Below are positions 22,965-54,683 of a stretch of 58,288 bases of DNA, piece after piece. The stretch spans positions 1 to 58,288 of the forward strand of contig JARGFU010000029.1 of NCBI GenBank assembly GCA_029210625.1, read 5' to 3'. The translations under genes and the position numbers were made by a program. The stretch comes from Deltaproteobacteria bacterium. Its GTDB lineage: Bacteria > Myxococcota > Myxococcia > SLRQ01. The notes beneath the pieces were generated by a model that had not been told where the DNA came from, searched no databases, and saw nothing but the letters and a program-made list of their open reading frames with translations. Each line of letters opens with the position of its first letter. The first letter of the stretch is position 1.

Positions 22965-23020
22965 CCGGGGAGAGGCCGTGCACGTGTACGTGCACGTTCA
23001 CGTACCCGGGTTCTCCCCGG
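22965..23020 (+). repeat. REP-like palindrome with NACGTG hexamers, copy A (both arms)
   Basis: A 9-bp perfect outer stem (CCGGGGAGA 22965-22973 with TCTCCCCGG 23012-23020) encloses a run of NACGTN hexamers. An inner palindrome GTGCACGT...ACGTGCAC lies at 22978-22995. It fills most of the 78-base space between two convergent genes. Related units lie at 52005-52041, 52069-52117 and 53769-53815. It may act as a transcription end for both genes. Confidence 0.75.
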
Positions 23021-49749: not shown

Positions 49750-50795
49750 GCGTTCCCCTGGCCTCCTACCGCCAGGACGATCTTACCATGATGGTCGGCC
49801 GCCTCGAGGGCGGCGTAGCCCGCGTGGATCTCCTCGAGGGGGAGGACGCGATCGATCACCGGGGCCAGGGGGCCGCGGGCCGCGAGCTCGAGGCAGGTGG
49901 CGAGCTCGGAGCGCGTGCCCATCGTGGAGCCCAGCAGCTCGAGCTGCCGCGCGAAGAGCACCCGCAGGTCGATGCTGGCGGCGTGGCCGGTGGTGGCGCC
50001 GCAGGTGACCAGGCGGCCGCCGACCTTCAGGGCTCGCACCGAGATCGGCCAGGTGAGCTCCCCGGTGTGCTCGAAGACCACGTCGACCCCGCCCGGGGCG
50101 AGGGACTTCAGGCGGACCTTGAGATCCTCGGCCCGGTAGTTGATCACCTCGTCGGCCCCGAGGGCGGCCGCCCGCTCGGCCTTCTCGTCGCTGCTGGTCG
50201 AGGCGATGACCCGGGCACCCCGGTGGCGGGCGATCTGGATCGCGGCGCAGCCCACGCCGCTGGAGGCGCCGTGCACCAGCACCGTCTCGTCCCGGCGCAG
50301 GCGAGCCCGGGCGGTGAGCATGTGCCAGGCGGTGAGGGTGGCGACCCCCACCGCGGCGGCGACCTCGAAGTCCAGGCCCTCCGGCTTGCGCAGGAGGTTG
50401 CGGCGCGGCGCCACGAAGGCCTCGGCGGCGCAGCCGGGGCGGTGCTCGCCGAAGAGGTGGTACTCGCTGCAGAGGTTCTCGCGGCCGGCGATGCAGTCGA
50501 TGCAGCGGCCGCAGAAGTGGCCGGCCGACAGCACCACCTCCTCGCCCGGGTCGAGGTCGGTCACGCCCTCGCCCACCGCGTCCACCACGCCGGCGGCGTC
50601 GGCGCCCACCACGTGGGGGAAGCCGAGCTCGAGGCCGCGCCAGCCCTTGCGGACCCAGACGTCGAGGTGGTTGAGGGCCACGGCCCGCGGCCGCACCCGC
50701 ACCTCTCCGGGGCCCGGCTCGGGCAGGGGCAGGTCCTTCAGCTGGAGGACCTCCGGTCCTCCATGGCCGACGAGAGCTGCTGCACGGATCGTCAT
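49746..50795 (-). CDS. Zinc-type medium-chain alcohol dehydrogenase/quinone reductase
   Basis: 349 residues from the ATG at 50795 (MTIRAAALVGHGGPEVLQL), which overlaps the amidohydrolase stop (ATGA); an extension to 50840 is rejected. It is a GroES-like N-domain with a structural zinc lobe (CGRCIDCIAGRENLC, four Cys) and a Rossmann fold with ETVLVHGASSGVGCAAIQIA (about 168-187). The catalytic zinc site is not obvious: the usual Cys near residue 40 is replaced (ALNHLDVWVRKG, typical of quinone oxidoreductase or crotonyl-CoA reductase-like members). The likely cofactor is NADPH. Its substrate is unknown. Confidence 0.88.
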   Translation of the reverse strand: MTIRAAALVGHGGPEVLQLKDLPLPEPGPGEVRVRPRAVALNHLDVWVRKGWRGLELGFPHVVGADAAGVVDAVGEGVTDLDPGEEVVLSAGHFCGRCIDCIAGRENLCSEYHLFGEHRPGCAAEAFVAPRRNLLRKPEGLDFEVAAAVGVATLTAWHMLTARARLRRDETVLVHGASSGVGCAAIQIARHRGARVIASTSSDEKAERAAALGADEVINYRAEDLKVRLKSLAPGGVDVVFEHTGELTWPISVRALKVGGRLVTCGATTGHAASIDLRVLFARQLELLGSTMGTRSELATCLELAARGPLAPVIDRVLPLEEIHAGYAALEAADHHGKIVLAVGGQGNA

Positions 50796-51964
50796 AGGCT
50801 TCTTCCTTCGCGGTGGACCCCGACCACCCGGCGCAGACATCCTGGCTCCGTCAGCGGGTCCCCGTCGACCCGCGTGAGATCGGCTCGCCGTCCGGGGGCG
50901 AGGAGCCCCCGGTCGCCCAGGCCCAGGCCCTCGGCGGCGCCCGAGGTGCAGCTCACGAGCGCGGCGTGGGGCGGCAGGCCCGCCTCGATCATCGCCTCGA
51001 GCTCCGCGGCGAGATCCCCGTGGCGGTTGAGCGGGGTGCCGGCGTCGGTCCCGGCCACGATCCGCACCCCCCGGGCGAGGGCGGCCGCAAAGCTCTTGCG
51101 GTGATCGTCCACCGCCCGGGCCATCTTCTCCACCACGAAGTCGGGGACGCCCCGGCCCCGGCCGGCGAGGATGCCCCGGGAGGCATTGAAGGTGGGGACC
51201 AGGGAGGCTCCCTTCCGCTCGAAGGCGTCGAGGCAGGCCTCGTCCAGCCAGATCCCGTGCTCGATGGTGGCGACCCCGGCCTCGAGGGCGGCGAGCACGC
51301 CGCCGGCCCCCTGGGCGTGGGCGGCCACCCGCACGCCCCTCTCGGTGGCGATGGCCAGGGCGGCGTGGAGATCCCGGTCCGGGAGCTGCTGCTTCCCGGG
51401 ATCCACCCCCGGGGTCATCATCCCGCCGGTCACCGCCAGCTTCAGCCAGCGGGCGCCGGCCTCGATCTCCCGGCGGCCGGCCTCCCAGAAGCCCTCGGCC
51501 TCGGAGACCGCCCGGCCGACGAAGTCACCGTGGCCGCCGGTGATGCACAGGAGGTGCCCCGCGGGGATCACCTCCGGTCCCCGGCGCAGCCCGGCCGCGA
51601 TCTCCCGGGCGAGGCGGATGGCCTCGCCCCCCGGGGCCCCCAGGTCGCGCACCGTCGTCACCCCGGCGTCCAGGTGGGCCTCCGCCGCCTCCACCGCCTG
51701 TCGCTGCCGCTCCTCCGGGCTGGCGGCGAGGATCTCCGAGCGGGGATCGAGGCCTCCGGAGAGGGTGAGGTGGACGTGGGCGTCGATCAGCCCCGGCATC
51801 AGGGTCCCGGGGCCCGACACCTCGGGGAGGCCGCGGGTCTTCAGCTCCGAGAGGGGGCCGAGGGCCTCGATCCGGCCGTCGTCTCCGACGATCAGCCCTG
51901 CATCCTCGAGGGGCTCGGGAGCGGCGCCATCCCAGATCCGGTCGGCGGTGAAGAGGGTCCCCAT
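50792..51964 (-). CDS. Amidohydrolase, imidazolonepropionase/prolidase-like
   Basis: 390 residues from the ATG at 51964 (MGTLFTADRIWDGAAPEPL). The metal ligands of this superfamily are visible: HxH in GLIDAHVHL (about 62-64), a Lys in WLKLAVTGG, His in VAAHAQG, His in IEHGIW and Asp in AGTDAGTPL. The protein should be a binuclear metal hydrolase acting on amide or cyclic amide bonds, similar to Xaa-Pro dipeptidases and related enzymes. Substrate unknown. It starts the minus-strand block of three genes and is divergent from the MATE leader region, which carries REP-like arms starting 41 bases upstream of its start. Confidence 0.9.
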   Translation of the reverse strand: MGTLFTADRIWDGAAPEPLEDAGLIVGDDGRIEALGPLSELKTRGLPEVSGPGTLMPGLIDAHVHLTLSGGLDPRSEILAASPEERQRQAVEAAEAHLDAGVTTVRDLGAPGGEAIRLAREIAAGLRRGPEVIPAGHLLCITGGHGDFVGRAVSEAEGFWEAGRREIEAGARWLKLAVTGGMMTPGVDPGKQQLPDRDLHAALAIATERGVRVAAHAQGAGGVLAALEAGVATIEHGIWLDEACLDAFERKGASLVPTFNASRGILAGRGRGVPDFVVEKMARAVDDHRKSFAAALARGVRIVAGTDAGTPLNRHGDLAAELEAMIEAGLPPHAALVSCTSGAAEGLGLGDRGLLAPGRRADLTRVDGDPLTEPGCLRRVVGVHREGRSL

Positions 51965-52004
51965 GGCTCGATCCGTACCACGCACCTGCCTGGATCCCCA
52001 TCCC

Positions 52005-52041
52005 GTACACGTCCACGTACACGTACCCGGCTTCTCCCGGG
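52005..52041 (-). repeat. REP-like NACGTG repeat, copy B (inverted arm)
   Basis: On the minus strand this reads CCGGGAGAAGCCGGG followed by TACGTG/GACGTG hexamers, the same unit as copy A. Bases 52011-52026 are a perfect 16-base inverted match to 52092-52107 in copy C. Confidence 0.7.
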
Positions 52042-52068
52042 TGCCCGGCGGCGCCGACCTCTGTCCCT

Positions 52069-52117
52069 GGAGAGGCCGCGTACGAGCACGTGTACGTGTA
52101 CGTGGACGGTGCCTCCG
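52069..52117 (+). repeat. REP-like NACGTG repeat, copy C
   Basis: GGAGAGGCCG followed by four to five NACGNG hexamers. With copy B it forms a 16-bp perfect stem with a 65-base loop, a BIME-like pair of inverted units just upstream of the amidohydrolase gene. Confidence 0.7.
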
Positions 52118-52129
52118 GCAGGTTTCCGA

Positions 52130-52159
52130 TTGACCCGCTCGATCCCGATCGAGTACTAG
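52130..52159 (+). promoter_or_regulatory. Candidate promoter for the MATE leader RNA
   Basis: TTGACC (52130-52135), an 18-base spacer and TACTAG (52154-52159). The -35 is good, the -10 only 3 of 6. A start near 52166 would place the whole leader ORF and attenuator on the transcript. No other promoter is seen before the MATE start codon. Confidence 0.35.
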
Positions 52160-52203
52160 CGAGGATAACGAAGGCAACTCTTCGTCAGGAGCCAAGCTCG
52201 AGC

Positions 52204-52320
52204 ATGACCCACCGCATGTACCAGAAGACCCCCGACCTCCTCTGGAACCGGTCCGTCGCCGGTCCGCAGGGGATCGTCGTGGCCCGCGGTGGAGTCTCTC
52301 GAGAGGAGCGCCAGCCCTAG
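52204..52320 (+). CDS. 38-residue leader ORF of the MATE gene
   Basis: ATG 52204 to TAG 52320 encodes 38 residues (starts MTHRMYQKTPDLLWNRS). AGGAG lies at 52187-52191, 12 bases upstream, and part of it is inside the enclosing helix. Codon third positions are GC-rich like real genes here. Codons 2-4 overlap pairing region 1 and codons 26-30 overlap region 2, so a ribosome on this ORF would decide which RNA structure forms. There is no run of one amino acid, so it is not an amino-acid sensor of the trp type. An upstream in-frame start at 52090 would be inside the repeat and before the promoter, and is rejected. Confidence 0.5.
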   Translation: MTHRMYQKTPDLLWNRSVAGPQGIVVARGGVSREERQP

Positions 52321-52354
52321 CAAGTAGCTGACGAAGACAGTCTCGAGTCACCCA

Positions 52355-52391
52355 CCGCGGGCGTCCCGAAAGGGACCCCGCGGTTTTTTTT
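52355..52391 (+). terminator. Strong intrinsic terminator upstream of the MATE gene
   Basis: CCGCGGG (52355-52361) pairs with CCCGCGG (52377-52383). The stem continues with GTCCC/GGGAC after one bulged base and closes on a GAAA tetraloop (52368-52371). Eight T follow (52384-52391). This is the best intrinsic terminator in the window. Confidence 0.9.
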
Positions 52392-52419
52392 GTCCCACCT
52401 CCAACCCGAAACGAACGTC

Positions 52420-53841
52420 ATGTCGTCCCGTAGAGAAGCACTCCCCTGGAGCAACCACCCCACCCGAGAGCTGGCCCGGCTGGCCTGGCCGATCGCGGTG
52501 TCGATGGTCTCCTACGCCCTGATGACCCTGGCCGACACCTTCTTCGTGGCGCGCCTGGGGACCTCGGCCCTGGCCGGAGTGGGCTTCGGCGGCACCGCCG
52601 CCTTCTTCCTGCTCTGTTTCTCCTTCGGCCTCCTGCGGGGGGTGCAGATCCGCACCTCGGTGGCCGTCGGCGCCGGGCGCCGGGAGCAGGCGGGCTCCGT
52701 CCTCGACGCCGGGGTGCTCCTGGCGGGAGGGATGGGGGCGCTGACCCTGGGCCTGGGGCTGCTCCTGGCCGAGGTGGTGCCCTCGCTGATGGTCTCACAA
52801 GGGGCGGCCCTGCACGCCCGGGGCTACCTCCTGGTGCGCCTGCTCGCCGCGCCGCTGGTGCTGATCGCGGTGGCCCTGCGGCAGTCCCGCACCGGGCAGG
52901 GGGACGTGCACCACCCGATGGTGGCGGCCCTGCTGGCCAACGGCCTGAACATAGCCCTCGACGCGCTCTTCATCCTCGGCCTCGAGTGGGGTCCGGAGGG
53001 CGCGGCCTGGGCCAGCGATATCGCGGCTCTGGTGGAGGCCGCCTACCTCCTGCGGGTGGCGCTGCGCGCGGGCTGGCGTCCGGGCACCGCGCGCTGGCCG
53101 GTGGTGCGCGGGGTGCTCTCCCTGGGCGTGCCCACGGGCCTGCACTTCCTGCTGGAGATGGGCTCCTTCGCGGCGCTGACGGCCCTGCTGGCGCGGATGC
53201 CGGAGGTCGAGCTGGCGGCCCACCAGATCGCCCTGCAGGTCACCCACTTCTCCTTCCTGCCCGCCGCGGCGGTGGGGGAGGCGGCCTCGACCCTGGTGGG
53301 GCAGGCGGTGGGCGGCCACCGCGACGATCTGGTCCGTCCGCTGGCGCGCCGGGCGCTCCTGGGCGCCTCCCTCTACACCGGGGCCTGGACCCTGGGCTTC
53401 GCCTTCGGGGCGCCGCTGATCGTGAGCGTCTTCACCGGCGAGGCCGAGCTGGCCGGGGTCGCGGTGCGCCTGCTCTGGGTGGCGGCGGTCTTCCAGGTCT
53501 TCGACGGCGCCAACGTGGTCGGCCGCTCCGCCTTGCGGGGCACGGGCGACGTGCGGGTGCCGGCGGTGGTCGGCGTGGTCACGGCCTGGGTCCTGGTGCC
53601 TCCGCTGGCCTGGTGGCTGGGGCTGCACCTCGGCTTCGGAGCGCTCGGGGGCTGGCTGGGCCTCTGCGTCGAGCTGATCCTCGGGGCGGCGGTCTACTGG
53701 GCTCGCGTGGAGCGGGGAGGGTGGCTGGCGTCGGCGCGGCGGACGCGGGCCTCGGTCGCCGAGCGAGACCCGGGAGAGGCCGTGAACGTGAACGTGGACG
53801 TGTACGTGGACTTGGAAGGTGAGCCTCGCGAGGCCGCCTGA
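52420..53841 (+). CDS. MATE family multidrug efflux transporter
   Basis: 473 residues from the ATG at 52420; an in-frame TTG at 52390 lies in the terminator T tract and is rejected. No clear Shine-Dalgarno is seen. Twelve membrane segments in two MatE halves are visible (ELARLAWPIAVSMVSYALMTLADTFFVARLG; LGVPTGLHFLLEMGSFAALTALLARM). Family motifs are GVGFGGTAAFFLL and EVELAAHQIALQV...GEAASTLVGQAVGG. The protein should export cationic or other drugs by H+ or Na+ antiport. The C-terminus is odd: the last 25 or so residues (GEAVNVNVDVYVDLEGEPREAA) are encoded by a copy of the dispersed NACGTG repeat. Confidence 0.92.
   Translation: MSSRREALPWSNHPTRELARLAWPIAVSMVSYALMTLADTFFVARLGTSALAGVGFGGTAAFFLLCFSFGLLRGVQIRTSVAVGAGRREQAGSVLDAGVLLAGGMGALTLGLGLLLAEVVPSLMVSQGAALHARGYLLVRLLAAPLVLIAVALRQSRTGQGDVHHPMVAALLANGLNIALDALFILGLEWGPEGAAWASDIAALVEAAYLLRVALRAGWRPGTARWPVVRGVLSLGVPTGLHFLLEMGSFAALTALLARMPEVELAAHQIALQVTHFSFLPAAAVGEAASTLVGQAVGGHRDDLVRPLARRALLGASLYTGAWTLGFAFGAPLIVSVFTGEAELAGVAVRLLWVAAVFQVFDGANVVGRSALRGTGDVRVPAVVGVVTAWVLVPPLAWWLGLHLGFGALGGWLGLCVELILGAAVYWARVERGGWLASARRTRASVAERDPGEAVNVNVDVYVDLEGEPREAA
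53769..53815 (+). repeat. REP-like NACGTG repeat, copy D, inside the MATE coding end
   Basis: CCCGGGAGAGGCCG followed by TGAACGTGAACGTGGACGTG and further hexamers, matching copies A and C. It is translated as VNVNVDVYVD at the MATE C-terminus, which suggests that the element inserted into and extended the gene. Confidence 0.7.
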
Positions 53842-53851
53842 GCTGTCCGGT

Positions 53852-53900
53852 CCTCCCGTCCTCCTCTTCACGAGGAGGGCGGGAGGGCTTCCATTTTTTT
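53852..53900 (+). terminator. Terminator-like hairpin between MATE and ZIP genes
   Basis: A 15-bp stem (53852-53866 with 53872-53886, one G-T pair) closes on a 5-base loop (TTCAC). Seven T lie at 53894-53900, seven bases after the stem. The ZIP ATG follows at 53925, leaving only 24 bases for any promoter after the T tract. Confidence 0.75.
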
Positions 53901-53924
53901 CCGGCGTGCTGTCAAAAGGCGGCG

Positions 53925-54683
53925 ATGACCCTGGCCTACATCCTCGGCGCGAGCTTCCTGGTGAGCGTGGGCGGGACCGGCGCGGCGGCGGCGATCCTGC
54001 TCTTCCCGGACGAGGCCCGCTGCCGGCTGACCCGGGTGCTGCTGGCCTTCGCGGTCGGGGTGCTCCTCTCGGCGGCCCTGCTCGGGCTGATCCCCCACGC
54101 GGTGGAGCAGGGCGGAGAGCTCGAGCCGCTCATGGTGGCCATGCTGGTCACCTTCGTCGTGCTGATCGGCATCGAGAAGGTGATCCTCTGGGGTCACTCC
54201 CATCCCGAGGAGGAGGGGCACCGCCAGCACCACCACGAGCACACCATGGGGCCGATGGTCCTCATCGCCGACGCCCTCCACAACCTGGTGGACGGCGTCG
54301 TCATCGCCGCCGCCTTCTCGGCCTCGACCTCGCTGGGGCTGGCCACGACCCTGGCCGTGGCGGCGCACGAGATACCCCACGAGGTCAGCGACTTCGCGGT
54401 GCTGATCCAGGCGGGCTACTCCCGCGGGAAGGCCCTCCTGGCCAACATGCTGGCCGCGGGTACGACCTTCATCGGGGCCCTGCTGGCCTACTTCGTCCTC
54501 GCCGGCGTGCAGGCGGTGCTGCCCTATGCCCTGGCGGTCTCGGCGGCGAGCTTCCTCTACATCGCCATCGCGGCCCTGGTGCCGGTGCTCCACAGCCGCA
54601 CCGACCTGAAGAGCACCCTGATCCAGCTCGCCTCCATCGGCGCGGGGATCGGCCTCTCGGTGATGCTCCACGAGTGGCTCTAG
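53925..54683 (+). CDS. ZIP family metal transporter
   Basis: 252 residues, eight membrane segments. The His-rich cytoplasmic loop lies between TM3 and TM4 (HSHPEEEGHRQHHHEHTMGP). The metal-binding motifs are in TM4 and TM5: DALHNLVDGVVIAAAF (His-Asn-x3-Asp) and AAHEIPHEVSDFAVL (His-Glu-x2-His-Glu). This matches ZIP transporters that bring zinc, iron or other divalent metals into the cytoplasm. It follows a terminator-like hairpin and the MATE gene. The convergent Cys-rich lipoprotein gene ends 7 bases after its stop. Confidence 0.92.
   Translation: MTLAYILGASFLVSVGGTGAAAAILLFPDEARCRLTRVLLAFAVGVLLSAALLGLIPHAVEQGGELEPLMVAMLVTFVVLIGIEKVILWGHSHPEEEGHRQHHHEHTMGPMVLIADALHNLVDGVVIAAAFSASTSLGLATTLAVAAHEIPHEVSDFAVLIQAGYSRGKALLANMLAAGTTFIGALLAYFVLAGVQAVLPYALAVSAASFLYIAIAALVPVLHSRTDLKSTLIQLASIGAGIGLSVMLHEWL

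Follow-up and report, generated by a model that had tools for sequence, protein, structure and literature searches.

In attenuators of the trp type, the strands of the leader transcript pair in alternative ways (1:2, 2:3 and 3:4), and the position of the ribosome decides between them. The vmlR leader of Bacillus subtilis comprises an upstream open reading frame (uORF) within an anti-antiterminator, an antiterminator and an intrinsic terminator; stalling on the uORF blocks the anti-antiterminator, and the antiterminator then replaces the terminator in front of the resistance gene (PMC9226507). In Pseudomonas aeruginosa, the PA5471.1-armZ leader controls the MexXY efflux pump, although its attenuation is, according to a review, still in need of confirmation (PMC12057347). 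A single uORF may also respond to multiple drugs with pauses at different positions, as does toiL of topAI in E. coli (PMC12121999). The leader described here lies at positions 52166-52391 of a 58,288-nucleotide stretch of DNA (the window, with a G+C content of 71%) from an uncultured myxobacterium. It may be a transcription attenuator of a gene for a MATE family efflux transporter, worked by a translating ribosome. This is the best single reading of the locus, and we give it an even chance of being right; that the terminator is a conditional one is quite probable.

The proposed target gene occupies 52420-53841 on the plus strand. Its product carries MatE domains above the cut-off (PF01554, E=5e-52), scores 230 bits with TIGR00797 against a cut-off of 147 and has its best relatives of solved structure in NorM. 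A divergent amidohydrolase gene is found upstream (50795-51964, minus strand), and the switch structures are carried by the right half (52130-52391) of the roughly 455 bp that separate the two genes. In front of the MATE ATG at 52420, a clear Shine-Dalgarno sequence is not recognisable within 52385-52420, and a target gene with no clear ribosome-binding site counts against attenuation. An in-frame TTG is present at 52390, where the T tract of the terminator ends; with this start, the MATE frame would gain 10 codons.

An earlier note on this DNA had proposed a strong terminator in front of the MATE gene, a helix competing with it, a short ORF spanning the competing parts and a further helix enclosing the terminating state. 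All of these elements were recovered on the plus strand. On sequence and folding evidence alone, an intrinsic terminator (52354-52391) stands between leader and gene, and its T tract ends 28 bases before the ATG. It has 13 pairs, a GAAA loop and an energy of -27.8 kcal/mol; the stem (52354-52384) contains one bulged C, and the 8 T are at 52384-52391. A simple terminator scan made no call at 52354-52391, and the bulge is the probable cause. A perfect helix of 11 bp (52282-52292 with 52352-52362) overlaps the terminator arm. The strand that competes for the antiterminator's partner (52209-52215) is located inside a 38-codon ORF at 52204-52320. The terminating fold is enclosed by a perfect 10-bp helix, P1, made up of 52179-52188 and 52328-52337 (CUGACGAAGA).

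The core of the leader consists of three competing strands. Region 1 (52197-52215, CUCGAG-CAUGA-CCCACCGC) is the anti-antiterminator strand, which pairs with region 2 in the minimum-energy fold. Region 2 (52282-52306, GCCCGCGGUGG...CUCUCGAGA) can be the partner of either region 1 or region 3, and region 3 (52342-52362, UCUCGAG-UCAC-CCACCGCGGGC) includes the greater part of the terminator's 5' arm. Regions 1 and 3 are two copies of one motif, which includes a direct repeat ACCCACCGC at 52207-52215 and 52350-52358, and region 2 is complementary to both. Two elements can be added to the earlier description. The pairing of regions 2 and 3 extends further, as UCUCGAG/CUCGAGA, and a 5' hairpin ACGAAG/CUUCGU (52168-52185) competes with P1. 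The strand CUUCGU (52180-52185) has rival partners, namely ACGAAG (52168-52173) or, within P1, CUGACGAAGA. The hairpin fits the antiterminating fold and excludes P1; in transcripts without P1, its pairing probability is 0.96-0.999.

Together, these strands yield two self-consistent folds: P1 with 1:2 and the terminator, or the 5' hairpin with 2:3. The best energies are -106.0 kcal/mol for the terminating and -99.9 kcal/mol for the antiterminating fold. When the RNA ends at 52362-52372, with the terminator still lacking its 3' arm, the 2:3 fold has a probability of 0.98-0.996; once the terminator is complete, the fold with P1, 1:2 and the terminator is preferred. The strands, their mutual exclusiveness, their energies and the predicted logic are established by computation.

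Complementarity of this kind might arise by chance in G+C-rich DNA beside an ordinary terminator, and both the 71% G+C of the window and the occurrence of the leader as a singleton without conservation would suit such an origin. It is nevertheless very unlikely in the light of the shuffled controls. Pairing of the leader with region 3 has a duplex energy of -45.0 against a shuffle mean of -27.3 (sd 3.05), which is 5.8 sd away and was reached in 0 of 1000 shuffles, and a complementarity to the terminator arm of at least 11 bp occurs in 0.14% of dinucleotide shuffles. The full switch logic was also sought in 1000 shuffles of the leader, with the terminator kept unchanged; it appeared once by the loose and never by the strict definition. 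A P1-like helix is found in 1.2% of shuffles, and folding of the whole leader gives a z of -4.07. The leader contains, beyond chance, an exclusive antiterminator overlapping the terminator arm, together with a competing anti-antiterminator strand in region 1.

How a ribosome might work this switch can be outlined if, as we infer, there is a promoter upstream, the ORF is translated and pausing is the trigger. The RNA would start near 52166. In a leader that is untranslated, or translated without a pause, region 1 would pair with region 2 inside P1; region 3 would then be free, the terminator would form and RNA polymerase would stop before the MATE gene. A ribosome pausing in about the first 21 codons would cover or pass region 1 and prevent its pairing. 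In that case the 2:3 antiterminator would form, the terminator would be blocked and the MATE gene would be transcribed. The behaviour of the full-length leader was followed in a thermodynamic, minimum-energy model. It takes no account of kinetics, pausing or proteins, nor of pairs that form behind the ribosome, and it represents the ribosome as a block that hides the transcript as far as its leading edge. In this model the terminator forms with a probability of 1.0 when there is no ribosome, the 2:3 fold dominates (0.98-1.0) with the P-site at codons 1-21, and the terminator dominates again from codon 24 on.

Because the effective pause window is wide, general translation stress would suit the leader better as a signal than a single amino acid. 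Ribosome-targeting drugs would be a likely cause of pausing, and such a signal would fit with the MATE product. Of the attenuation suggested in the earlier note, the conditional terminator with its three competing strands is borne out by statistics and energies, and the codons of the ORF are coding-like; sensing of drugs by the leader is plausible by analogy.

The leader ORF (MTHRMYQKTPDLLWNRSVAGPQGIVVARGGVSREERQP) resembles a gene in its codon usage. Its G+C by codon position (0.69/0.49/0.87) is similar to that of the MATE gene (0.77/0.52/0.95). In a test limited to these 38 codons and interpreted partly post hoc, its codon score is higher than those of 98% of stop-free stretches in a wrong frame and higher than for every ORF found in 5000 shuffles, but it is low when compared with true gene stretches (3rd percentile). 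Before the ATG the codon signal lies below zero; it is positive from near the ATG as far as about 52281 and turns negative again in region 2, where the codons (TCT, CGA) are constrained by pairing. This bias can be taken as moderate evidence for translation. The possible Shine-Dalgarno sequence AGGAG (52187-52191), partly in P1, is placed 12 nt before the ATG, and this weak site with its long spacing counts against translation. Neither a stall motif nor a run of a single amino acid is obvious in the predicted peptide. In the 147 genomes of the class, no credible homologue of it was found; the matches were weak and scattered and mostly fell within long frames.

The poor spacing of the Shine-Dalgarno sequence would fit with an incidental ORF in a two-state terminator switch that is set by something other than a ribosome. 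The setting factor could be an sRNA, an RNA-binding protein or a small molecule (the leader then being an undescribed riboswitch) that occupies region 1, or that either opens P1 or makes it more stable. An unknown ligand or protein acting there is the main rival to control by the ribosome: the bistability has no need of translation, and P1 closes a structured domain in a riboswitch-like architecture. It is still rather unlikely, as the ORF has a coding-like bias, the leader has no above-threshold Rfam match, and neither a second copy in the genome nor one in relatives was found, while riboswitches are usually widespread.

In the whole window, no match to an Rfam covariance model reached the gathering score. 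Those near the leader were all sub-threshold and were mostly to an unrelated hexamer repeat at 52003-52109. Arrays of this hexamer, ACGTGN (GTGTACGTGTACGTG), are also present at 53781-53814 and 22978-23007. They often come as a pair of inverted arms with about 80 bp between them, and such pairs could form a long hairpin. One array lies within the MATE coding sequence, where it is read as VNVNVDVYVDL at the C-terminal end of the protein. The pattern has 284 matches in the genome (with at most 2 mismatches) against 15 for a reversed control pattern, and the arrays look like a dispersed repeat family.

A candidate promoter of the sigma-70 type, TTGACC-18-TACTAG (52130-52159, plus strand), not mentioned in the earlier note, would start the RNA at the first hairpin. 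This promoter-like site (52130/52154) scores 8.43, against a 99th percentile of the window of 8.03 per 105 bp; a stricter promoter scan called none. Between the terminator and the ATG, a comparable site was not found. The earlier argument that there is no room for a promoter is right about the 28-nt gap, but it is a weak one, because the next gene, for a ZIP transporter (53925), likewise follows a plain terminator at a distance of about 25 nt; this is an 18-bp terminator-like hairpin with 7 T, within the interval 53849-53925. No competing strand was found for that terminator at the end of the MATE gene.

A unit of about 225 nt is delimited by the promoter-like site and the terminator. It could be a separate upstream gene for a small RNA or a small protein, with its own promoter and terminator, the MATE gene being expressed by basal read-through or from an unrecognised promoter and the competing strands being incidental. 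The position of the ZIP gene indicates that such spacing is tolerated here. This explanation is, however, quite improbable, given that no more than 1 of 1000 shuffles has competing strands that behave as a switch and that 6S RNA, tRNA and tmRNA are all ruled out. No tRNA or tmRNA was detected, and an identity with 6S RNA (RF00013) was rejected, the 6S RNA of this genome being elsewhere. The latter is found at G000:C44:4601-4798, with 79.4 bits, and 6S RNA is present in 51 of the 58 genomes searched.

For an attenuator controlled by the ribosome, conservation in relatives would be welcome, and the lack of any homologous leader or peptide in them counts against it. BLASTN found no homologue of the leader in 193 relatives or subsequently in 195 genomes of the phylum, two largely overlapping sets. 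The matches in the 193 relatives were short (18-59 nt), and the four that were opened lay in, or apparently in, coding sequence. When 38 genomes were searched with two covariance models, both derived from this leader sequence alone, the present locus was the only one with a significant E-value. Neither a second copy in the same genome nor a related leader in viral contigs was found. The nearest MATE homologues for which the upstream DNA was read are 38-54% identical and have other upstream regions; by eye, a comparable terminator-antiterminator leader is absent upstream of those designated L033, L032, G047, G104, G026 and G080. The second MATE gene of the same genome and that of G001 are more distant and also have other upstream regions.

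Either the leader arose recently, or it occurs solely in close relatives that are not in the sample. It is possible to speculate further that one strand (ACGAAG...CUCGAG...ACCCACCGC) was copied to the beginning of the uORF as well as to the terminator arm, and that this produced a lineage-specific leader-peptide attenuator, which responds to ribosome pausing in general and acts directly to turn on a Myxococcota MATE pump; we consider this full scenario possible but doubtful. If it is true, a compact attenuator would exist in one lineage, possibly of recent origin because no sampled relative carries the leader. It would also suggest that a search of single genomes for competing strands near terminators can find switches that comparative methods miss.

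The mechanism itself is already known, and it is the MATE target and the Myxococcota lineage that appear to be new. In the open-access literature, outside which most subscription papers lie, no report was found of leader-peptide attenuation in myxobacteria or of direct attenuation of a MATE gene. The strand scheme is the same as in trp-type attenuators, but the MATE leader is without a run of codons for a single amino acid, and its pause window is broad (codons 1-21). Such a window would allow varied pause positions, in which it is reminiscent of toiL; the latter, however, controls translation and Rho-dependent termination, whereas the MATE leader has an intrinsic terminator. The PA5471.1-armZ leader is likewise from a Gram-negative bacterium, and its leader peptide has been put forward as a sensor of ribosome-targeting drugs that works through attenuation and so raises efflux. 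It works through an anti-repressor, while the MATE leader would act directly on the pump gene. To vmlR, the likeness is in the order of the parts and in the predicted logic, with no relationship by sequence known. The leader of vmlR shows conservation among Bacilli and has experimental tests behind it, whereas the MATE leader is described from sequence and folding. Furthermore, the MATE leader has P1 and the rival 5' hairpin as extra parts, and its target is a MATE pump instead of an ABCF factor. If the proposal is correct, the direct, drug-sensing attenuation of a resistance gene would be extended beyond the Bacillota, both to the Myxococcota and to a transporter of the MATE family.
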